A stretch of DNA of 64,000 bases from Veillonella infantium (lineage in GTDB: Bacteria > Bacillota > Negativicutes > Veillonellales > Veillonellaceae). Both the position numbers and the translations under genes were made by a program. Below, in pieces: positions 40,461 through 49,772 of the stretch; position 1 is the stretch's first letter; each line of letters opens with the position of its first letter. The notes beneath the pieces were generated by a model. It had not been told where the DNA came from, made no database searches, and saw only the letters and a list, made by a program, of their open reading frames with translations. Location: assembly GCF_002959895.1 (NCBI RefSeq), contig NZ_PPDD01000001.1, positions 1 through 64,000 on the forward strand. The letters are read 5' to 3'.

Positions 40461-40545
40461 AAACTCTCACCTCATATTTTAAAATATATGGATATTAATA
40501 TACTGACTGAACTAATACAAACTATTATATTTAGTATCTAGTTTC

Positions 40546-40962
40546 TTATAATACTTTCCGCATCATCACATGTGGACAGCCTTCATCAAGGTATTCCTCG
40601 CCTTCTGCCTTATAGCCAAGAGATTCGTAGAATGCTTTTGCCTGTACTTGCGCTGATAAGGAGCAGGTCTTAAATCCATCGCGGCGAATGCCGTTTTCTG
40701 CGGCCATCATAATCTTAGTACCTAGATGTTGTCCACGATACAACTTACGCACCGCCATACGGCCAATATGGGCATCACCTTCTTCGTTACTTGGGAAATA
40801 GCGACATGTACCTGCTGGCTTACCATCTATGGATAAAAGTACAAACTTTGCAGTCTCATCGATTTCATCGAACTCGTCTTCAAAACCCTGTTCCTTCATA
40901 AACACATCGATACGAATTTGTTTTATTTCATCAGTTATATGATCTAAGATTTGAATAATCAT
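40546..40962 (-). CDS. GNAT-family N-acetyltransferase
   Basis: This 138-residue acetyltransferase has a central acetyl-CoA loop (GRMAVRKLYRGQHLGTKIM) and a C-terminal YESLGYKAEGEEYLDEGCPHV, like ElaA/YjcF-type GNATs. The substrate is unknown. AAAGGG lies before the ATG. It is divergent from the aromatic operon. Confidence 0.85.
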   Translation of the reverse strand: MIIQILDHITDEIKQIRIDVFMKEQGFEDEFDEIDETAKFVLLSIDGKPAGTCRYFPSNEEGDAHIGRMAVRKLYRGQHLGTKIMMAAENGIRRDGFKTCSLSAQVQAKAFYESLGYKAEGEEYLDEGCPHVMMRKVL

Positions 40963-41215
40963 AGGTAACCCTTTCGCAGAATAAGTATATTTATAAAAAT
41001 CGATTTAAGCTTATTACGAAACATAATATAAACACTGAAAACTTCTTATTTTTATTATATCAAAAACACGCTTAATTCCAACAAACATCTTAAATTCTAT
41101 TAATTCCCACAGCCAAAATATTTTAAAACTTCTATGAAATTTAATTTTAAGTATTGCATAATCTTATCATTTGGGTTTATACTATACCCAACATTTTAGA
41201 AAGGAGCAACCAAAG
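40963..41215. other. Promoter region of the aromatic operon
   Basis: This AT-rich divergent gap contains the rightward promoter at 41154-41183. No further structure was recognised. Confidence 0.5.
41154..41183 (+). promoter_or_regulatory. Promoter of the aro operon leader
   Basis: TTGCAT and TATACT are separated by 18 bp and lie 33 bp before the leader peptide start codon. Confidence 0.65.
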
Positions 41216-41305
41216 ATGACTAACCAAATTAGCCTCGCTACAAAACAATACTTTTATTGGTTCTTTATCCAACGTACGGGTAAGGAACTATTTGTGGTAC
41301 GCTAA
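41216..41305 (+). CDS. Aromatic-rich leader peptide (attenuator)
   Basis: This 29-codon frame is preceded by AAGGAG. Residues 12-17 read YFYWFF, six aromatic residues in a row that cover all three aromatic amino acids, and F26 follows. It ends at TAA, 36 nt before a strong terminator and 133 nt before aroF. This is the architecture of a ribosome-mediated transcription attenuator: shortage of charged Tyr, Phe or Trp tRNA would stall the ribosome in the leader and prevent termination. The peptide itself needs no function. It is too short for standard gene callers. Confidence 0.85.
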   Translation: MTNQISLATKQYFYWFFIQRTGKELFVVR

Positions 41306-41341
41306 TTAAGATTGAGTCATTATTAGTTGCTTAGAATAGTA

Positions 41342-41380
41342 AAAGGGCTGCCCGTATTAAACTACGGGTAGCCCTTTTTT
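41342..41380 (+). terminator. Attenuator terminator of the aro operon
   Basis: The 12-bp stem GGGCTGCCCGTA/TACGGGTAGCCC (one G-T pair) with a six-base loop TTAAAC is followed by TTTTTT. The segment TACGGGTA at 41275-41282 in the leader frame duplicates part of the 3' arm and could pair with the 5' arm as an antiterminator. Confidence 0.88.
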
Positions 41381-41438
41381 GTTTGCTATCCCGTATGGTA
41401 AGCCCTACTATTCACTGTAGTTATAAGGAGGAATTATC

Positions 41439-42452
41439 ATGATTATTACATTGAAACAAAACGCAGCAGAAACAGAAGTATCTCGTTTACGCAGTGAATT
41501 AGAGGAAAAAGGCTTCATTATCCATCCTGTAGAAGGTGCACGCTATAATATTTTAGGTCTTATCGGAGACACAGCATCCCTCGATGCTCGTCAAATCGAG
41601 TCCCTTGATTTCGTAGATAAAGTAACTCGTATCCAAGAACCATACAAAAAAGCAAACCGTAAATTCCATCCAGACGATTCTGTAATCAACGTAGGTGGTG
41701 TATTGATCGGTGGTGGTCACTTCGCAGTAATGGCTGGCCCTTGCTCCGTAGAAACACCTGAACAAGTATTAGAAACTGCTAAAGCTTGTAAAGAAGCTGG
41801 CGCTACAATTCTTCGTGGCGGCGCTTTCAAACCTCGTACATCCCCATACTCCTTCCAAGGCATGGGCCCAGAAGGCTTAGAATTATTAGAGCTTGCTAAA
41901 AAAGAAACAGGTCTTCCTATCGTATCTGAAGTTATGGATATTTCCCAATTACAGTACTTCGATAACGTAGATATGCTTCAAATCGGCGCTCGTAACATGC
42001 AAAACTTCACACTTTTAAAAGAAGTAGGTAAATTAAACAAACCAGTTCTTTTAAAACGTGGTTTATCTGCTACATACGAAGAATGGTTGATGGCTGCTGA
42101 ATACATCATGTCTGAAGGCAATGAACAAGTTGTATTATGTGAACGTGGTATCCGCACATTCGAAACTAAAACGCGTAATACATTAGACGTAACAGCAATT
42201 CCTATGATGCACGAATTATCTCACTTGCCAATCATCATGGACCCTAGCCACGCTGCTGGTATGAGTCGTATGGTTCGCCCACTTTCCCTTGCATCCGTAG
42301 GTGGCGGTGCAGACGGCCTTATGATCGAAGTTCACAACGATCCATCCAAAGCATTATGCGACGGCCCTCAAGCATTACGTCCAGACCAATTCACTAGCCT
42401 TATGAAAGAAGTTATCGCATTGCGCCAAGCATTGGTAGAATGCACTAAATAA
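41439..42452 (+). CDS. aroF: 3-deoxy-7-phosphoheptulonate (DAHP) synthase
   Basis: This 337-residue enzyme makes the first step of the shikimate pathway from phosphoenolpyruvate and erythrose 4-phosphate. An N-terminal regulatory ferredoxin-like domain (about residues 1-70) precedes the barrel, which has AGPCSVETPEQ, GGAFKPRTSPYSFQG and DPSHAAG. This is the type found in Thermotoga and Bacillus rather than the E. coli type. It is the first structural gene after the attenuator. AAGGAGG lies before the ATG. Confidence 0.93.
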   Translation: MIITLKQNAAETEVSRLRSELEEKGFIIHPVEGARYNILGLIGDTASLDARQIESLDFVDKVTRIQEPYKKANRKFHPDDSVINVGGVLIGGGHFAVMAGPCSVETPEQVLETAKACKEAGATILRGGAFKPRTSPYSFQGMGPEGLELLELAKKETGLPIVSEVMDISQLQYFDNVDMLQIGARNMQNFTLLKEVGKLNKPVLLKRGLSATYEEWLMAAEYIMSEGNEQVVLCERGIRTFETKTRNTLDVTAIPMMHELSHLPIIMDPSHAAGMSRMVRPLSLASVGGGADGLMIEVHNDPSKALCDGPQALRPDQFTSLMKEVIALRQALVECTK

Positions 42453-42468
42453 TCTCACATACCACACA

Positions 42469-42512
42469 AATAAGCTAGTATCCGTTATAATAGATACTAG
42501 CTTATTCTTTTA
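42469..42512 (+). terminator. Intra-operon hairpin aroF-aroB
   Basis: The perfect 14-bp stem AATAAGCTAGTATC/GATACTAGCTTATT has a weak CTTTT tail. It may lower expression of downstream genes or protect the aroF mRNA end. Confidence 0.6.
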
Positions 42513-42526
42513 AGAAAGGAACCGTT

Positions 42527-43579
42527 ATGACTCGCATTCATATTAACGCCTCCACACCGTATGACGTCGTCATCGAGGAAGGCGCTTTACAACGCATCAC
42601 CGATTATATTAAACCGTTAAAACCAAATTGCCGTGTTATCATCGTCAGCGACAGCAATGTGGCACTGCACTATTTGGATTCTGTGAAAGCTAATATGGAA
42701 CATGCGGGTTATACTGTTTGTGATTATGTATTCCCTGCTGGTGAAAGCTCCAAAAACGCTCATCAACTCATCGATTTAGTGGAGTACATGGCGGCCCAAT
42801 CATTAACACGCAAAGACCTTCTCATTGCCCTTGGAGGCGGCGTAGTAGGTGATATGGCAGGCTTTGCAGCAGCTACCTATCTACGTGGGATCGATTATGT
42901 ACAGGTGCCTACCTCTCTTTTAGCCGCTGTAGACTCCTCTGTAGGCGGTAAAACGGCGGTCAATCTAGAAGCAGGTAAAAACTTGTGGGGTGCTTTCAAA
43001 CAACCTATCCTTGTCCTCTGTGATCCTACAACACTTAACACCTTGCCAGACATGGAGTGGAAAAATGGATGCGGAGAAATTATTAAATATGGTTTCCTTG
43101 ATGTACCAGGGTTATTAACCCAACTCGAGCATAAGCCATTAATAAAGCATCGTGATAGCGTTAGTGCCGTTATCGCTCGTTGTGTTCAAGCAAAGGCGGA
43201 TATCGTAGAGCAAGACGAACGTGAATCTGGTGTTCGTGCCCTCTTAAACCTCGGTCATACCTTTGGTCATGGTATTGAAAAAGCGAGCCACTTTGAAGTC
43301 CACCATGGCTACGCCGTTGCTATTGGCATGGTCCTTATGGCGCAAGGTGCTGTCAAACATGGAGAGTTAGATAAAGTGGCGTTAGAAAAATTAAAGGCTC
43401 TCATCGAAGCACACGATTTGCCAACTACTATGACCATACCAAAAGAAGAAATCCTGGCAGCTGCTAAACATGATAAAAAAAGCGAAGGTGCTACTATAAA
43501 AATCGTTATTCCTACTAGTTATGGTCATAGCGAGCTCAAGGTTGTCACCCACGAAGAGTTAGCAACCTATCTTGATTAA
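42527..43579 (+). CDS. aroB: 3-dehydroquinate synthase
   Basis: This 350-residue NAD+ and metal-dependent enzyme carries out the second step of the shikimate pathway. Signatures are GGGVVGDMAGFAAATYLRG, VDSSVGGKTAVN and LNLGHTFGHGIEKAS with its metal-binding histidines. Length is normal for the family. It follows aroF after a hairpin, with AAGGA before the ATG. Confidence 0.95.
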   Translation: MTRIHINASTPYDVVIEEGALQRITDYIKPLKPNCRVIIVSDSNVALHYLDSVKANMEHAGYTVCDYVFPAGESSKNAHQLIDLVEYMAAQSLTRKDLLIALGGGVVGDMAGFAAATYLRGIDYVQVPTSLLAAVDSSVGGKTAVNLEAGKNLWGAFKQPILVLCDPTTLNTLPDMEWKNGCGEIIKYGFLDVPGLLTQLEHKPLIKHRDSVSAVIARCVQAKADIVEQDERESGVRALLNLGHTFGHGIEKASHFEVHHGYAVAIGMVLMAQGAVKHGELDKVALEKLKALIEAHDLPTTMTIPKEEILAAAKHDKKSEGATIKIVIPTSYGHSELKVVTHEELATYLD

Positions 43580-43685
43580 GATAACTTATCTATTACGATT
43601 AAGTTATCTAAGGTTTCTAGTACCTACAACCTACATAATTGTTATTTGTAATATAAGGTTTACCTAATATTTAAAGGAGATTTAT

Positions 43686-44954
43686 ATGCATTCCGTAACG
43701 AACGCCATTCCTACAGGAACGATTGCGTCCATCCCAGCAAAAGCACATGCACACCGCGCATTAATTTGTGCAGCCCTTGCTAACTCTCCATCTACTATAC
43801 TATTGAGCCGTACCTCTAAAGACATCGATGCTACTATGGACTCCTTGCGAGGCTTAGGTGCTCACGTAATATATAAAAATAATATTGTCACTGTTACACC
43901 AGGGCCTGTCCCAGCAAAGGGCAATGTAGTACCTCACGAATCAGGTACTACATTACGGCTCTTATTACCTGTAGCCGCATCCATCTGTAACGATGTAGAC
44001 GTAGATGCGAAAGGTCGTTTACCAGATCGCCCTCTCGAACCTATGCTAGGCGAAATGAAAGCGCATGGCGTAACATTCTCCCAGGATAAACCACCTTTTA
44101 CTATGACAGGACGTCTCCAAGGTGGTAATTTTTCCATGGTAGGAGATGTGAGTAGCCAATTTTTCTCTGGCTTATTGTTGGCGGCTCCACAAATTGGCTT
44201 GTCCACCATCACCTCTACTACACCATTACAATCTAGTGATTATGTAACATTGACGACTGAAACAATGCGTGATTTTGGCGTAGAGGTAGAACATACCTTG
44301 CCAGACGCAAACATTAATGAGGCTTTTACAGTTCCATTTGGGGCCTCCTTCATAGGCCGTGATAATTACCAAATCGAAGGCGATTGGTCCAATGCCGCCA
44401 TTTGGATGGTAGCAGCTGGCATGACGGGCAAACCAATTACCATTACGGGCATGAACAAGAATTCCGTACAAGCTGACCGCCGCATCATGCAAGTCATGAT
44501 TGATGCAGGTTGTGATGTAGCATGGGATGGTATGAATGTAACGGTTACAGGCCGAGCGTCAAAACCAATTCATGTAGATCTTGAGCAAATGCCAGATATG
44601 TTACCAGTTATGGCTGCTCTTGCATGCTCTATTTCTGGTGAAAGTTCCTTTATTAAGGGTGCTCGCCTACGTTTAAAAGAATCTGATCGTCTTGTAGCTG
44701 TTGCCAATCTCGTAAGAGATCTAGGCGGCACGGTGCGTGAAGACGGCGATGACCTATATATCATCGGTAGTGGTATACTTAAAGGTGGACAAGGCGATTG
44801 CGTGAATGACCATCGCCTCGTTATGGCAGGCACATTGATGGCCCTCATCAGTGAAAATCCTGTTACGTTAAAAGATAGCGAAGCTATCACAAAATCCTAT
44901 CCAGACTTCTTTGAGGACTGGAATTTACTTGGCGGTAATGCACAACCGTTATAA
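43686..44954 (+). CDS. aroA: 3-phosphoshikimate 1-carboxyvinyltransferase (EPSP synthase)
   Basis: This 422-residue enzyme has most signatures: ESGTTLRLLLPVA, SSQFFSGLLLAAPQ, RLKESDRL and DHRLVMAGT. The N-terminal motif reads IPAKAHAHRALI (residues 16-27). The lysine and arginine are kept, but the serine usually following the lysine is replaced by A20; that serine contacts shikimate 3-phosphate in E. coli. It is otherwise a full-length, normal enzyme of the sixth shikimate step. AAGGAG lies before the ATG. Confidence 0.92.
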   Translation: MHSVTNAIPTGTIASIPAKAHAHRALICAALANSPSTILLSRTSKDIDATMDSLRGLGAHVIYKNNIVTVTPGPVPAKGNVVPHESGTTLRLLLPVAASICNDVDVDAKGRLPDRPLEPMLGEMKAHGVTFSQDKPPFTMTGRLQGGNFSMVGDVSSQFFSGLLLAAPQIGLSTITSTTPLQSSDYVTLTTETMRDFGVEVEHTLPDANINEAFTVPFGASFIGRDNYQIEGDWSNAAIWMVAAGMTGKPITITGMNKNSVQADRRIMQVMIDAGCDVAWDGMNVTVTGRASKPIHVDLEQMPDMLPVMAALACSISGESSFIKGARLRLKESDRLVAVANLVRDLGGTVREDGDDLYIIGSGILKGGQGDCVNDHRLVMAGTLMALISENPVTLKDSEAITKSYPDFFEDWNLLGGNAQPL

Positions 44955-45026
44955 ATTGCAAACCATATCCGATGTGCTTTAATAGATAAGAATAGTAGTA
45001 CGTACTATATAGTAGGAGTTAATATA

Positions 45027-46121
45027 ATGGCATCTAATTTTGGTAAAACCATACAGGTATCTACCTTTGGCGCCTCTCATGGATACGCTATCGGCGGTAT
45101 CGTAGAAGGCCTACCTTGTGGACATACCATCGATATCGATGAGTTAAAAGCCTTTTTAAAGCGCCGTGCGCCAGGGCAAAATCAATTAACAACACAGCGT
45201 AAGGAAGCCGATGTGCCTGAATTTTTAGCAGGTATTGTAGACGGCATGCTCAGTGGTTCTCCATTGGCATTTATGATCCGCAACACATCTCAACACTCTA
45301 GCGATTATAATAACTTACGCGATATCCCTCGCCCCTCTCATGCAGATTTTACAGCTCGTATGCGCTACGGTGACAAGGTAGATATGCGTGGTGGCGGTCA
45401 CTTCTCAGCACGCCTTACAGCACCACTTTGCGTAGCTGGTGGCATCGCCCTTCAACTATTACGCGAAAAAGGCATCGAAATCCACGGCCATTTAAAACAA
45501 GTGGAAACCATCCAAGATGCTCCTATCGATATGGTTCATCCAGATATGAAAGCACTTGGTACTATCTCGACAGAGCCAATTGCTATGCTCGATGCAGATA
45601 AACGCACTGAAGTAGAAAACCTTGTAATGAACCTCAAAAAAGATGGGGACTCTACAGGTGGCATCGTTGAAGTCGTTGCTACAGGTCTACCAATTGGCCT
45701 TGGCAATCCAAACTTTGACGGCATCGAAAACCGTTTAGCTCGCGTTATCTTTGGTGTACCAGCCATTAAAGGCATCTCCTTTGGCGGTGGCTTTGACATG
45801 TGTGCTAAGCTTGGTTCCGAAGTGAATGACGCTTTCACCATAGACGGCGACAAGATTACAACGATAACGAATAATAGCGGTGGCGTCCAAGGTGGTATTA
45901 CCAATGGTTTACCACTTGTTATGCAAGTGGGTATCAAGCCAACTCCATCCATTTATAAAGAACAACATTCTGTATCACTTTCTCAAAAAGAGGACACATT
46001 GCTCACCATTCAAGGTCGTCACGACCCATGCGTGGCTCTTCGTGCAGTGCCTGTTATCGAAGCTGTTACGGCCCTTGTTATTCTTGATTTCTTAGGAGAT
46101 ATTGACCATGAACTTAGATGA
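45027..46121 (+). CDS. aroC: Chorismate synthase
   Basis: This 364-residue FMN-dependent enzyme makes the last common step, giving chorismate. Signatures are GASHGYAIGGIVEGLPCG, RPSHADFTARMRYG and RGGGHFSARLTAPL. Length is normal. Its 3' end overlaps pheA by 14 nt, which implies translational coupling. AGGAG lies before the ATG. Confidence 0.95.
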   Translation: MASNFGKTIQVSTFGASHGYAIGGIVEGLPCGHTIDIDELKAFLKRRAPGQNQLTTQRKEADVPEFLAGIVDGMLSGSPLAFMIRNTSQHSSDYNNLRDIPRPSHADFTARMRYGDKVDMRGGGHFSARLTAPLCVAGGIALQLLREKGIEIHGHLKQVETIQDAPIDMVHPDMKALGTISTEPIAMLDADKRTEVENLVMNLKKDGDSTGGIVEVVATGLPIGLGNPNFDGIENRLARVIFGVPAIKGISFGGGFDMCAKLGSEVNDAFTIDGDKITTITNNSGGVQGGITNGLPLVMQVGIKPTPSIYKEQHSVSLSQKEDTLLTIQGRHDPCVALRAVPVIEAVTALVILDFLGDIDHELR

Positions 46122-47247
46122 AGTACGCGTTAAAATTAACGATATAAACGACCAAATGCTCGCCCTCTTCAAAGAGCGCATGGAACTCTCCAAGGATGTT
46201 GCGGCAGCGAAAAAAGAAATGAACAAGGCTATTTACGATGCCAAACGGGAACGAGATATCCTCGATAAAGTAACTCGAGATGCAGGCCCAGACCTCGACC
46301 TATACGCACGCCGTTTCTTCGAAGCATTATTTAGCTTGAGCCGTACGTATCAGTCTGAACAATTATTCCAAGATAATGAGTTCACAGTAAAAATGAAAAA
46401 AGCCATTGAGCAGTCCCCTACCTTACCTCCACAACGTGGCAGCGTAGCTTGTGCTGGCGTCTTCGGTAGCAATGCCCAAGTAGCGTGCGATAAATTATTA
46501 CCACTCAGCCAAATTCACTATGTAACAGGATTCCGTGCCGTATTCGACGCTGTTGAGTCTGGAGAATGTCAATTCGGCGTATTACCTATCGAAAACAGCT
46601 CCAATGGTTCTGTAAAAGAAGTGTATGACCTTCTAGAAGATCGTAAATGCTATATCGTGCGCGGTACACGCCTTTGGATTTCCCACGACTTGCTAGTAAA
46701 AAAAGGTACGAAATTAGAAGATATTCATACTATCATCTCCCATCCTCAGGCGTTGGGCCAATGTAGCCACTTCCTAGATACATTAGAAGGCGTAGAGTTG
46801 CGTTCCTTCGACAACACAGCTCGTGCAGCACAAATGGTGGCAGCCAGTGATGATCCAGGCGTAGCAGCTATTGCAGCACCGCAATGTGCAGACTTGTATA
46901 ACTTGTCTCCATTGATGCGCAATATCCAAAATAGCGATAACAACTATACGCGCTTTATTTGCATTAGCAAGGACTTCCATGTGTACCCAGGAGCTAATAA
47001 AATCTCGGTGGTAACCACAGCAAGCCACGCTCCAGGTGGGCTTGGTACATTACTTACCAAGTTTGCTAATATCGGCGTAAATCTAACAAAACTCGAATCT
47101 CGCCCTATCGTAGGCCATAACTTTGAGTTCTTGTTCTACCTCGATTTAGAAGCATCCTTAGCAGATCCAAAGGTATTATCTGTTCTAGCAGAGCTTCATA
47201 CATCACAAGATAAGTTCCGCTTGCTCGGTAATTACCCTGAAAACTAA
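46108..47247 (+). CDS. pheA: Chorismate mutase / prephenate dehydratase
   Basis: This 379-residue bifunctional P-protein makes phenylpyruvate for phenylalanine. It has an AroQ-type mutase (residues about 1-85), a dehydratase (about 110-285; LPIENSSNGSVKEVYDLL, NYTRFICIS) and a C-terminal ACT domain (about 300-375; GGLGTLLTKFANIGVNLTKLESRP) for feedback by phenylalanine. ATG 46108 was chosen; a TTG 6 nt upstream is in frame. No tyrA is present in the window. Confidence 0.94.
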   Translation: MNLDEVRVKINDINDQMLALFKERMELSKDVAAAKKEMNKAIYDAKRERDILDKVTRDAGPDLDLYARRFFEALFSLSRTYQSEQLFQDNEFTVKMKKAIEQSPTLPPQRGSVACAGVFGSNAQVACDKLLPLSQIHYVTGFRAVFDAVESGECQFGVLPIENSSNGSVKEVYDLLEDRKCYIVRGTRLWISHDLLVKKGTKLEDIHTIISHPQALGQCSHFLDTLEGVELRSFDNTARAAQMVAASDDPGVAAIAAPQCADLYNLSPLMRNIQNSDNNYTRFICISKDFHVYPGANKISVVTTASHAPGGLGTLLTKFANIGVNLTKLESRPIVGHNFEFLFYLDLEASLADPKVLSVLAELHTSQDKFRLLGNYPEN

Positions 47248-47370
47248 TATATTCATTCCTACTAGTCCCTATTAGGGCATATATAGTACAATGAATATAG
47301 TTATAAAACTCCAATGGCTAATAGGTACCAGCCTATTAGCCATTCTATGTATATTGACCTAGGAGGTCCT

Positions 47371-48606
47371 ATGAAATTTGGTTTACTTGGCCGTACGTTG
47401 GGCCATAGCTTTTCCCCTCACATTCATAGTGTGTTAGGAAATACTAATTACGAATTATTTGAACGAGAACCGAGCCAACTACAAGAGTTCTTTGATGATC
47501 AGGAATTACAAGGCATCAATATTACCTTCCCTTACAAGGTAAATGCTCTTGAGGCTTGTGATGTAGTTGACCCTCGTGCAGAGCGCATTGGCTGTGTAAA
47601 TACGATGGTTCGCAAAGACGGTAAATGGCATGGCTATAATACAGACTATGATGGCTTTGTATTTACCCTACAACATGCTGGCATCGATGTAGCTGGCAAG
47701 GAATGTATCATTCTAGGCGATGGTGCTTCCTCTGCTACAGTTCACGTAGCACTTGAGGATTTAGGTGCTAAGAGTATCACTCATTTATCTCGTAAAACAG
47801 CTCCGTTCTACGATGATGCACCTAATTACTACGAAACAGCACAGATTATTATTAACTGTACACCTATCGGTATGTATCCTCATAATCCGGCTAACCTTAT
47901 CGATATTACTCAGTTTTCTAAATTAGAAGGCGTTGTAGATCTCATCTACAATCCACGCCGTACGATTTTGCTTTTACAAGCAGAAATGATGGAAATTCCG
48001 CATTGTGATGGCTTGCCATTCCTCGTGGCGCAAGGCGTTGAGGCGGCTAACCATTTCCAAGGTGAAAGCTTTGGTACAAAGGAAATCGAACAAATCCTAC
48101 GAGATATGCGTCGTGAAAAGGAAAATATCATTCTCATCGGCATGCCTGGTGTAGGTAAAACAACTGTTGGTAAAGCCCTTGGAGAAGAAATGGGCCGCAC
48201 TTGCGTTGATGTGGATCAAGAACTAGAAAAAGAAATCGGTGATATCTCTGCCTATATTACAGAACAAGGGGAACCGGCCTTCCGTGAAAAAGAGGCGGAA
48301 ATGATTGCGAAACTCGGCACTCAAACAGGCCTCGTTATCTCCACTGGCGGTGGCTGTGTAACAGTGCCTAAAAACTACGCACACCTACGCCAAAATGGTC
48401 GCATTTACCAATTAACACAACCAGTAGAAAACCTATCTACCTCCGGTCGTGTACTTTCTAGTGGCGGCATCGAACGCTTACGCGAACTGGAAGCAACTCG
48501 CACACCAATGTATGAAAGCTTTGCGCAATGCATCGTAGAACATAATCGCAATGCACCAGAAACAGTAGCAGCTATCCTAGAAGACTTTGAAGCAAACTTA
48601 TTGTAA
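47371..48606 (+). CDS. aroE-aroK: Shikimate dehydrogenase-shikimate kinase fusion
   Basis: This 411-residue fusion has residues 1-250 as AroE (LGHSFSPHIHSVLG, NITFPYKVNALEA, NTDYDGF, GDGASSATVHVAL) and residues 252-411 as shikimate kinase, with the P-loop GMPGVGKTTVGKALG at about 256, DVDQELE, and STGGGCV. It therefore performs two non-consecutive-gene steps (4 and 5) in one chain. The start at 47371 follows AGGAGG. It is the last gene of the operon before the terminator at 48673-48711. Confidence 0.93.
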   Translation: MKFGLLGRTLGHSFSPHIHSVLGNTNYELFEREPSQLQEFFDDQELQGINITFPYKVNALEACDVVDPRAERIGCVNTMVRKDGKWHGYNTDYDGFVFTLQHAGIDVAGKECIILGDGASSATVHVALEDLGAKSITHLSRKTAPFYDDAPNYYETAQIIINCTPIGMYPHNPANLIDITQFSKLEGVVDLIYNPRRTILLLQAEMMEIPHCDGLPFLVAQGVEAANHFQGESFGTKEIEQILRDMRREKENIILIGMPGVGKTTVGKALGEEMGRTCVDVDQELEKEIGDISAYITEQGEPAFREKEAEMIAKLGTQTGLVISTGGGCVTVPKNYAHLRQNGRIYQLTQPVENLSTSGRVLSSGGIERLRELEATRTPMYESFAQCIVEHNRNAPETVAAILEDFEANLL

Positions 48607-48672
48607 GAGCATTTACATCTGTATTTCTAGATAAAACTAAAACTCATATCATGACATCAATGATATAAACTG

Positions 48673-48711
48673 AAAAGCAGTAGCTATCCTAAAGATAACT
48701 ACTGCTTTTTT
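48673..48711 (+). terminator. aro operon terminator
   Basis: The stem AAAAGCAGTAG(C)TATC/GATA(A)CTACTGCTTTTTT lies 67 nt after the aroE-aroK stop codon. Confidence 0.88.
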
Positions 48712-48870
48712 ATGTGTCCTATGTATTATATATATTTGAAAAAGCTACCATTTGCAATTACAATGTAATTACATTTAAAATTCAAAAAACTTAAATACAT
48801 TTTACTATAAAATCAGCTCTATAACCGAAACATTACAGACACAAAGAAAAAGAATACTAGGAGAGATACT

Positions 48871-49485
48871 ATGAAAACTGTAAACCTACAAGTCCGCATC
48901 AACGAAGATTTAAAACAAGAAGTATCTAGCATATTAAAAGCACAAGGTCTATCCTATACCTCCATGCTTGACGCACTATTTCGTCAAATCATTAAAGAAC
49001 GTCGCATTCCGTTTGCCATTGCATTACCAACGGCACCGATAGATGAAAGACCTACACCAAGCACGATCAACAACGGCACCTATGAACAACCACAAACTAC
49101 ATTAAAAGCCTCGGATACTACAAGTACATATGGAGCCAGTCCGTCAAATGAGATAGACATAGCCTTCGACACAATCGATAAAACAGGTGTTCTTAACATC
49201 CGCATTAATCCTAAAGTAAAGACACTTACTACGGCAATCCTAAAAGAAATGGGATTAACCATATCATTATTGATTACACTAATCTCCAAACAAATACAGT
49301 TTTTAAAAGCAATTCCTAATTCGGTAAACAAGCCAATTGCTTGTGACTCTATGAATGCAGACTTTCTTACTGACGAAGAAATCAATCAACTACTAGAGTT
49401 GTCATATATAGATATGGAACAAGGTAACTTAATTTCAGCTGAAGATCTTTTTGAGCAACTAAAGAAAGAAGGTCTTCTTTTATGA
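48871..49485 (+). CDS. RelB/DinJ-type antitoxin with two DNA-binding domains
   Basis: This 204-residue protein has two ribbon-helix-helix motifs of the RelB/DinJ type: residues 3-50 (VNLQVRINEDLKQEVSSILK) and 106-152 (GVLNIRINPKVKTLTTAILK). They are joined by a low-complexity Thr/Ser linker. The C-terminal 40 residues (DEEINQLLELSYIDMEQGNL) likely bind the toxin. Ordinary RelB antitoxins have about 80-100 residues and act as dimers, so this looks like a single-chain tandem duplicate. It overlaps the toxin gene by 4 nt (ATGA). Confidence 0.8.
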   Translation: MKTVNLQVRINEDLKQEVSSILKAQGLSYTSMLDALFRQIIKERRIPFAIALPTAPIDERPTPSTINNGTYEQPQTTLKASDTTSTYGASPSNEIDIAFDTIDKTGVLNIRINPKVKTLTTAILKEMGLTISLLITLISKQIQFLKAIPNSVNKPIACDSMNADFLTDEEINQLLELSYIDMEQGNLISAEDLFEQLKKEGLLL

Positions 49486-49772
49486 GCTATAAAGTTTTAT
49501 TTAGTAAACTTGCTGAAAAAGAAGTGAAAAATATCATTATAAATTTAAAAGAATTTACTCAAGATTTGAATCTAATTCAACAACGACAAGCCGAAATTCG
49601 GAATGCAGTCTTTTCACTTGATATTTTCCCTGAACGATATCCTATATATAAGACTAATAATGGAATATATTATTTTCGAAAAATGGTGACTAAACATTAT
49701 ATTATCTTATACTCTATAAAAAATAAAACTGTAATAATTAAGAAAGTACTAACGCAAGGTATGAGTATATAA
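49482..49772 (+). CDS. RelE/ParE-family toxin
   Basis: This 96-residue protein has the RelE/ParE fold pattern: MSYKVLFSKLAEKEVKNII, a helix with FPERYPIYK, then strands ending in HYIILYSIKNKTVIIKKVL. It is likely an mRNA interferase or gyrase poison. It is translationally coupled to the antitoxin and ends at a bidirectional terminator. Confidence 0.82.
   Translation: MSYKVLFSKLAEKEVKNIIINLKEFTQDLNLIQQRQAEIRNAVFSLDIFPERYPIYKTNNGIYYFRKMVTKHYIILYSIKNKTVIIKKVLTQGMSI

Follow-up and report, generated by a model that had tools for sequence, protein, structure and literature searches.

In Corynebacterium glutamicum, the aroR leader with a Phe-Tyr-Phe motif precedes a DAHP synthase gene and is interpreted as acting by ribosome-mediated attenuation, according to the accessible portions of the published reports (PMC4046766, PMC11802643). 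The motif uORFC-13-1 is outlined, in the available part of its description, as an upstream ORF that contains one or more Phe codons and is accompanied by a terminator, located before aroF; the same text mentions that attenuation had been hypothesized earlier for aroF of Escherichia coli, whose 5' UTR differs from the Acholeplasma motif (PMC8632094). Excerpts of two further papers describe His leader attenuators in Bacillota, in which leader peptides with a terminator and an antiterminator occur in place of T-boxes (PMC9413887, PMC2965389). By the account in the available part of a 2010 survey, amino-acid leader peptides were known only from Proteobacteria and Actinobacteria before that survey added the His case of bacilli (PMC2965389).

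Here, we describe a leader located before the aromatic operon of Veillonella infantium (Negativicutes) in a stretch of 64,000 nucleotides, hereinafter the window (assembly GCF_002959895.1, contig NZ_PPDD01000001.1, positions 1-64,000). T-boxes, which sense tRNA charging, are the usual regulatory device in Bacillota, and the leaders pheL and trpL overlap segment 1 of a four-segment RNA. As judged from sequence and its comparison among relatives, the Veillonella leader is highly likely to be a ribosome-mediated transcription attenuator of the trp/phe type that senses the charging of aromatic tRNAs; the operon would very probably be read only when aromatic amino acids run short.

Leader region and aromatic operon of the window

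The leader region and the operon that follows it include the following features:

41154-41183, + strand: candidate promoter, -35 TTGCAT (41154-41159) and -10 TATACT (41178-41183) with an 18-nt spacer (sequence)
41200-41206, + strand: Shine-Dalgarno (SD) site AAAGGAG of the leader (sequence; small changes only in the family alignment)
41203-41210, + strand: leader SD region, pairable with 41326-41332 behind the stop codon (conserved helix)
41216-41305, + strand: leader peptide ORF MTNQISLATKQYFYWFFIQRTGKELFVVR, ATG start, 29 codons, TAA stop (ORF list, sequence)
41249-41266, + strand: aromatic run TAC TTT TAT TGG TTC TTT (YFYWFF), six consecutive codons (sequence)
41258-41270, + strand: segment 1, forming the 5' arm of the 1:2 hairpin and including part of the run (Trp-Phe-Phe codons) (scan, fold, alignment)
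41274-41282, + strand: antiterminator half GUACGGGUA, pairable with 41349-41357 (alignment; duplex of -15.2 kcal/mol)
41278-41290, + strand: segment 2, forming the 3' arm of the 1:2 hairpin within the ORF (scan, fold, alignment)
41341-41380, + strand: intrinsic terminator (3:4), hairpin 41341-41378 with 16 pairs, 8 of them G-C, and T run 41375-41380 (scan, fold)
41349-41357, + strand: segment 3 UGCCCGUAU, common to the antiterminator and the terminator (duplex, alignment)
41439-42452, + strand: aroF, DAHP synthase, the first enzyme of the shikimate pathway (NF006421 and TIGR01361 above cut-off)
42527-43579, + strand: aroB (TIGR01357 above cut-off)
43686-44954, + strand: aroA (TIGR01356 above cut-off)
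45027-46121, + strand: aroC (TIGR00033 above cut-off)
46102-47247, + strand: pheA, chorismate mutase-prephenate dehydratase (near full-length NCBIfam match, below curated cut-offs)
47314-48606, + strand: aroE-aroK fusion (aroE and shikimate kinase models match the respective halves, below curated cut-offs)

The preliminary description of this DNA had proposed an unannotated leader peptide with its own ribosome site, and the 29-residue frame with its AAAGGAG site, both kept in relatives, bears this out. The strong terminator said to follow the frame proved to be attenuator-like, a 16-bp hairpin with a T-rich tail; it has the most pairs and the most G-C pairs among the four terminator-like sites listed in 40500-42500, where shuffled sequences give 1.4 on average. 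The region thus combines (i) a translatable ORF led by an SD site, (ii) a conserved run of end-product codons, and (iii) an intrinsic terminator before the first gene. The candidate promoter matches the -35 consensus poorly and is absent from the pattern-scan list of 40500-42500; by eye, TTGC is present upstream of all 27 leaders of the window's family, and TATACT or TATAAT upstream of 26 of the 27.

All six aromatic genes, aroF-aroB-aroA-aroC-pheA-aroEK, lie behind the leader and terminator, which supports the earlier proposal of one switch for the whole set. When 42400-49000 was scanned for patterns, the + strand before 48600 yielded three sites resembling terminators and three resembling promoters; since these internal sites are weak and shuffled sequences give as many, it is plausible that the operon is read as one transcript. 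Further downstream, a RelB-type antitoxin gene followed by a small ORF (a putative toxin, by position alone) occupies 48871-49772 and separates the operon from aroD, which is on the opposite strand. The AroF protein is 97% identical in Veillonella parvula SKV38 and V. tobetsuensis, among the matches listed.

Competing helices and the proposed switch

The leader RNA (41190-41386) folds at -74.7 kcal/mol compared with a mean of -39.6 kcal/mol in 200 shuffles, none of which is as stable (z -9.2). The consensus of the window's family contains three main helices, namely the SD region with 41326-41332, the 1:2 hairpin in the ORF, and the terminator; 98.3% of their cells are paired, and 30 cells are changed on both sides, as opposed to 9.0 in shuffles. 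Taken separately, the terminator is paired in 99.4% of cells (13 pairs counted), with both-side changes at 5 pairs, and the 1:2 hairpin in 98.4% (12 of its 13 pairs counted; 26 distinct family sequences). The alternative 2:3 helix is paired in 93.9% of cells in the 26 distinct family sequences against 22-40% when slid, so that the 1:2, 2:3, and 3:4 helices all stand far above their slid controls within this family. The 2:3 helix has 6 double-changed cells versus 2.9 in shuffles of the window's family, and its pair types there are not above shuffles (247 of 500 reach the native number). Part of the 2:3 pairing is due to the resemblance of segment 2 to segment 4, as competition for segment 3 requires. 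In relatives, both sides have changed at 2 of the 5 pairs of the SD-region helix, which may turn off translation of the leader at a late stage or favor termination when no ribosome starts.

The codons of the run show no base variation across the ten family loci of the same length, the window's own copy included. From the run to the stop codon, the ORF folds at -18.1 kcal/mol, the mean of 100 random synonymous recodings being -9.5 kcal/mol and none being as stable, and the native 2:3 duplex is reached by 4 of 100 silent recodings (it is better than the other 96). Because silent recodings reach the native duplex rarely and the native hairpin never, selection seems to act on the leader RNA beyond the encoded peptide. 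At two other loci such contrasts are weak or absent, for the duplex in L022 and for both hairpin and duplex in L028.

According to the proposed mechanism, a ribosome would begin to translate the leader before RNA polymerase has left it. With aromatic aminoacyl-tRNAs plentiful, the ribosome would pass the run and segment 2 would be masked or paired with segment 1; segments 3 and 4 are expected to form the terminator, and transcription would stop at about 41380. Under a shortage of charged Phe-tRNA, and probably of charged Tyr- or Trp-tRNA, the ribosome would stall on the run and cover segment 1, the freed segment 2 (41274-41282) would pair with segment 3 (41349-41357), the terminator would fail to form, and the genes from aroF to aroEK would be read.

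This scheme was simulated by removing the footprint of a stalled ribosome, cutting the RNA before segment 4, and scoring the upstream pairing of segment 3. Over 85 leader-bearing loci of the class, the mean pairing is 0.54 for aromatic codons, 0.33 without a ribosome, and 0.29 for a ribosome placed at the stop codon, the aromatic mean exceeding the no-ribosome value in 72 of the 85. In the window, the pairing is 0.33-0.43 with the A site on F-Y-W-F-F, 0.12 in the free RNA, and 0.14 at the stop; the value is 0.05 at the first Tyr of the run and near 0 at the codons after the run, and some codons outside the run are also high at 0.26-0.34 (Thr and Lys before the run, 0.34; Lys after it, 0.31). 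Synonymous recodings of the window give a mean of 0.31 compared with the native 0.35, and 40 of 100 are at least as high. Eleven loci were recoded for the difference between aromatic codons and the free or stop state: L028, L046, L056, L040, and L111 exceed nearly all recodings, and L001, L010, L016, L022, L107, and L085 do not exceed them; in L010, segment 3 pairs equally with the ribosome at the stop.

The 2:3 duplex exceeds shuffles modestly over the 85 loci (z < -1.5 in 26 and z < 0 in 60). In a swap test with the arm fixed, the native middle outperforms the median foreign one in 15 of 16 families (p = 6e-4), family f30 going the opposite way; with foreign arms in place of foreign middles, the test is flat (p = 0.67). 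Families differ in their 2:3 sequence yet keep complementarity. A competing antiterminator on the 5' arm of the terminator is thus supported, strongly in the window's family and more weakly, by shuffles, elsewhere.

Distribution of leaders and the amino acids they may sense

Homologs of AroF were found in 51 of 61 genomes of the order, giving 51 aroF loci, and in 238 of 252 genomes of the class. Outside the order, 63 class loci were picked from the listed matches to cover many genera, a non-random choice in which several genomes give two loci; for the 74 loci outside the class, the named records with the best scores among the matches listed were used, with taxa taken from record titles alone. 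A paralogue with the DAHP/KDO8P synthase fold lacking the N-terminal match (L002) was left out of the counts, dense frames judged spurious (L078, L086, L087, L090, L091, L106, and L110) were not counted as leaders, and the leader frame was set by hand for 13 leaders.

Conservation of the aromatic run, proposed earlier as a check, was confirmed: an aromatic leader precedes aroF in 50 of the 51 order loci and in 35 of the 63 loci picked elsewhere in the class. The window's family carries it at each of its 27 loci (27 to 42 codons; the run is broken in L027), as do 23 of the 24 other order loci. In the genus Veillonella its form is mostly QYFYWFFIQRTGKELF, and YFYFWFF or TFFWFF is found in other genera. 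A fixed rule, demanding an SD-led ORF with at least six aromatic residues in 14, selects 26/27 loci of the window's family, 23/23 other order loci, 32/63 in the rest of the class, and 48/74 outside the class (the best-matching among the matches listed). Its antisense control gives 0 in all four sets (0/27 in the window's family, 0/113 in order and class together), and shuffles give 4/270, 8/230, and 11/630 (23/1130 for the class) and 5/740 outside the class. Since so many loci of the order and the class carry the leader and the antisense control yields none, its presence before aroF is not a matter of chance.

A terminator-like hairpin with a T-rich tail follows all 85 class leaders, with a median of -18.2 kcal/mol compared with -2.5 in shuffles; 80 of 85 native hairpins and 10 of 510 shuffles reach -12 kcal/mol or better, and the terminators of L036, L077, and L088 are each equalled by one of six shuffles. 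Outside the class, all 48 leaders are followed by such a hairpin, as seen in the native sequences. By title, these records include Clostridium bovifaecis, Anaerococcus, Acetobacterium, Alkalibacter, and Fretibacterium. An example of the aromatic-rich leaders among L122-L195, titled Clostridia, Synergistaceae, and others, is MKRNIFAAEYFYFYFINKS.

Terminator kept and frame lost, the pattern that the preliminary description named as refuting its proposal, occurs in 1 of the 51 order loci. This locus (L115 of genome G030) retains a GC-rich hairpin but has no leader frame, U tract, or Rfam match, and is perhaps a decayed attenuator. A hairpin retained without a frame is also what an ordinary terminator, or a small RNA accompanied by a chance ORF, would leave; for the window this explanation is extremely improbable, given that 50 of 51 order loci retain the frame, its start, and the run, and that the upstream gene (40546-40962) is on the other strand, so that no co-directional gene ends just before the leader.

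All 28 leaderless class loci were scanned; a T-box precedes aroF in 16 of them (4 and 12 in two scans), which leaves 12 of the 63 loci with neither device; outside the class, T-boxes were found in 2 of the 20 scanned loci among the 26 that fail the fixed rule. Control of the window's operon by a T-box or riboswitch, the ORF being incidental, would agree with these T-boxes of leaderless loci; it is nevertheless hardly credible, as an Rfam scan of the window gave no family at gathering score, including T-box RF00230 and the Phe, Trp, and other leader families, and no T-box on the aroF strand was detected in the leader-bearing loci scanned (the window and 32 of the other 84). The T-box present at the leader-bearing locus L077 belongs to a divergent gene. 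The respective genome, G108, has a leader on one aroF (L077), a T-box on a second aroF copy (L078), and another leader on aroK (L238).

The preliminary description held that the run senses all three aromatic amino acids, which is only partly supported. Over the 85 cores, Phe is present in 84, Tyr in 80, and Trp in 60; on the other hand, Trp is replaced by Gly (TGG to GGG) in L017 and L024 of the window's family, and five of the six loci of genus g3 lack Tyr in the run. The same attenuator could be essentially a Phe sensor, Phe being the end product of the pheA branch, with the Tyr and Trp codons merely lengthening the slow stretch. We regard this as a real but less favored possibility. The near-universal Phe codons, the less frequent Trp, and the two TGG-to-GGG changes agree with it, as does C. 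glutamicum aroR, for which Tyr availability was reportedly irrelevant in the accessible part of the source (PMC11802643). It is opposed by the frequency of Tyr, nearly equal to that of Phe (270 versus 326 residues in the 85 cores), and by the Trp codon, which 23 of the 27 family members keep at the same column.

A further point in favor of Phe sensing comes from the V. infantium genome, in which a T-box-like element (L201, C3:33793-34045; 68.4 bits, less than the gathering score) has its end about 170 bases upstream of a trpE match; since this element precedes trpE, the Trp branch seems to be under separate control by a sensor of its own. The same genome (L196-L198, L200) has three above-cut-off T-boxes before genes that were recognized by eye as cysS, thrS, and leuA; a further, weaker T-box lies upstream of an ileS-like gene.

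Codon hairpin, leaders before other genes, and known systems

Outside the window's family, the leader core is typically like FSWGYFFSAGYF, with Ser encoded by AGC in 41 of 41 cases at its column and the preceding Phe by TTT in 42 of 42. These codons are fixed because they form a nested hairpin, UAGCUGG.GCUA, loop, UAGC.CUGGCUA. We aligned 46 of the 58 leaders outside the window's family, 12 being left out for differing length or layout, so the following counts speak for the aligned 46 (42 distinct sequences): 91.1% of cells are paired versus 25-45% when slid, 24 cells are double-changed versus 5.8 in shuffles, and 5 pairs have a double change versus 2.9 in shuffles, with 28 of 500 shuffles reaching the native number. 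By eye, compensatory versions of the hairpin were observed in families f25, f22, f11, and f29. The best 2:3 pairing outside the window's family is often between the ORF end and the terminator arm on its loop side; the sequences involved are specific to each family.

Conserved non-aromatic residues in cores of this type might suggest a nascent-peptide arrest, in which the peptide itself would stall its ribosome, a free aromatic amino acid serving as the ligand; TnaC is a precedent for such ligand-dependent arrest. For FSWGYFFSAGYF this reading was rejected based on the codon counts and the covariation: the non-aromatic residues are fixed at the level of codons and lie in a covarying hairpin. 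The order and spacing of the aromatic residues also vary between families, and nascent-peptide arrest appears quite improbable for the leaders as a whole; attenuation driven by tRNA charging remains the preferred interpretation.

A model of the class-wide codon hairpin (R1) matches 95 of 252 class genomes at E <= 0.01 and 6 of the 74 loci outside the class below E 0.001. Its search of the V. infantium genome gave no match because the window's family uses a different 1:2 hairpin. Beyond aroF, 20 R1-matched places were judged from their most aromatic frame and 4 of them read in detail. Leaders with the codon hairpin precede (i) tyrA-aroA-aroC (L232) and aroA-aroC (L233, L237), aroC being called by eye, (ii) aroE-aroK (L234) and aroK (L238, L240), and (iii) a gene for a 144-residue protein without an NCBIfam match (L243). 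Among the matched places, L239 is a doubtful case, L235 is cut by a contig edge, and L241 contains a masked stretch. The weak tail of R1 matches includes chance matches; those in G060, G244, G204, G165, G174, G114, G046, and G012 were rejected for want of an aromatic leader, the one in G060 being a plain hairpin before trpS.

The frame with its run, the terminator, the competing pairings, their conservation, and their linkage to aroF are read directly from the sequence and its comparison. The mechanism belongs to a known kind, and the window's copy comes close to a textbook example. How widespread this kind of attenuator is was unexpected; its unusual features are a mixed aromatic run on the common pathway, a spread where T-boxes would be expected, and codons doubling as a hairpin. 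Aromatic leaders before aroF in related bacteria seem to be undescribed so far: the open-access literature yielded no report of such a leader in Negativicutes, which is weak evidence, subscription papers being mostly outside the search. On balance, we consider it probable that an undescribed attenuator family governs shikimate entry across Negativicutes and much of Clostridia and Synergistota, that it swaps with T-boxes, that its sensing codons double as a hairpin in most sampled Negativicutes leaders, and that its regulon, including tyrA, aroA-aroC, aroE-aroK, and aroK, reads pooled aromatic tRNA charging. Since the leader guards the first aromatic step in Veillonella and in many related bacteria, a common control element is being missed by annotation. 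Lineages have either a T-box or a leader on the same gene, and the evolution of tRNA-charging sensors is therefore directly testable. The mixed run also poses the question of whether one leader may serve as an OR gate for three tRNAs.

Leaders of the ilv and thr type are likewise mixed. The contrast drawn earlier with leaders sensing mainly one amino acid was too strong, given that C. glutamicum aroR is mixed as well in the available description (PMC11802643). Comparison with the known systems reveals both shared and distinct features. Sister lineages have T-boxes ahead of aroF, and the V. infantium genome probably has one ahead of trpE; T-boxes operate without translation or a leader peptide. 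The His leaders use His codons and, in the accessible parts of the reports, are assigned to bacilli, Peptostreptococcaceae with Lutispora, and Erysipelotrichales, not to Negativicutes (PMC9413887, PMC2965389). The uORFC-13-1 motif, compared by its partly available description, has its own structure model and is reported only in Acholeplasma and unassigned environmental sequences, not in Negativicutes. The E. coli pheL-pheA and trpL-trp systems (genes as given in the accessible part of PMC11802643) share the logic of end-product codons in the leader, whereas they respond mainly to one amino acid and the window matches no Rfam leader family. The closest precedent is aroR-aroF of C. glutamicum, compared by its published description as far as available: it belongs to another phylum and has Phe-Tyr-Phe in place of the YFYWFF of the window, and it shares with the Veillonella locus a mixed aromatic leader before a DAHP synthase gene.
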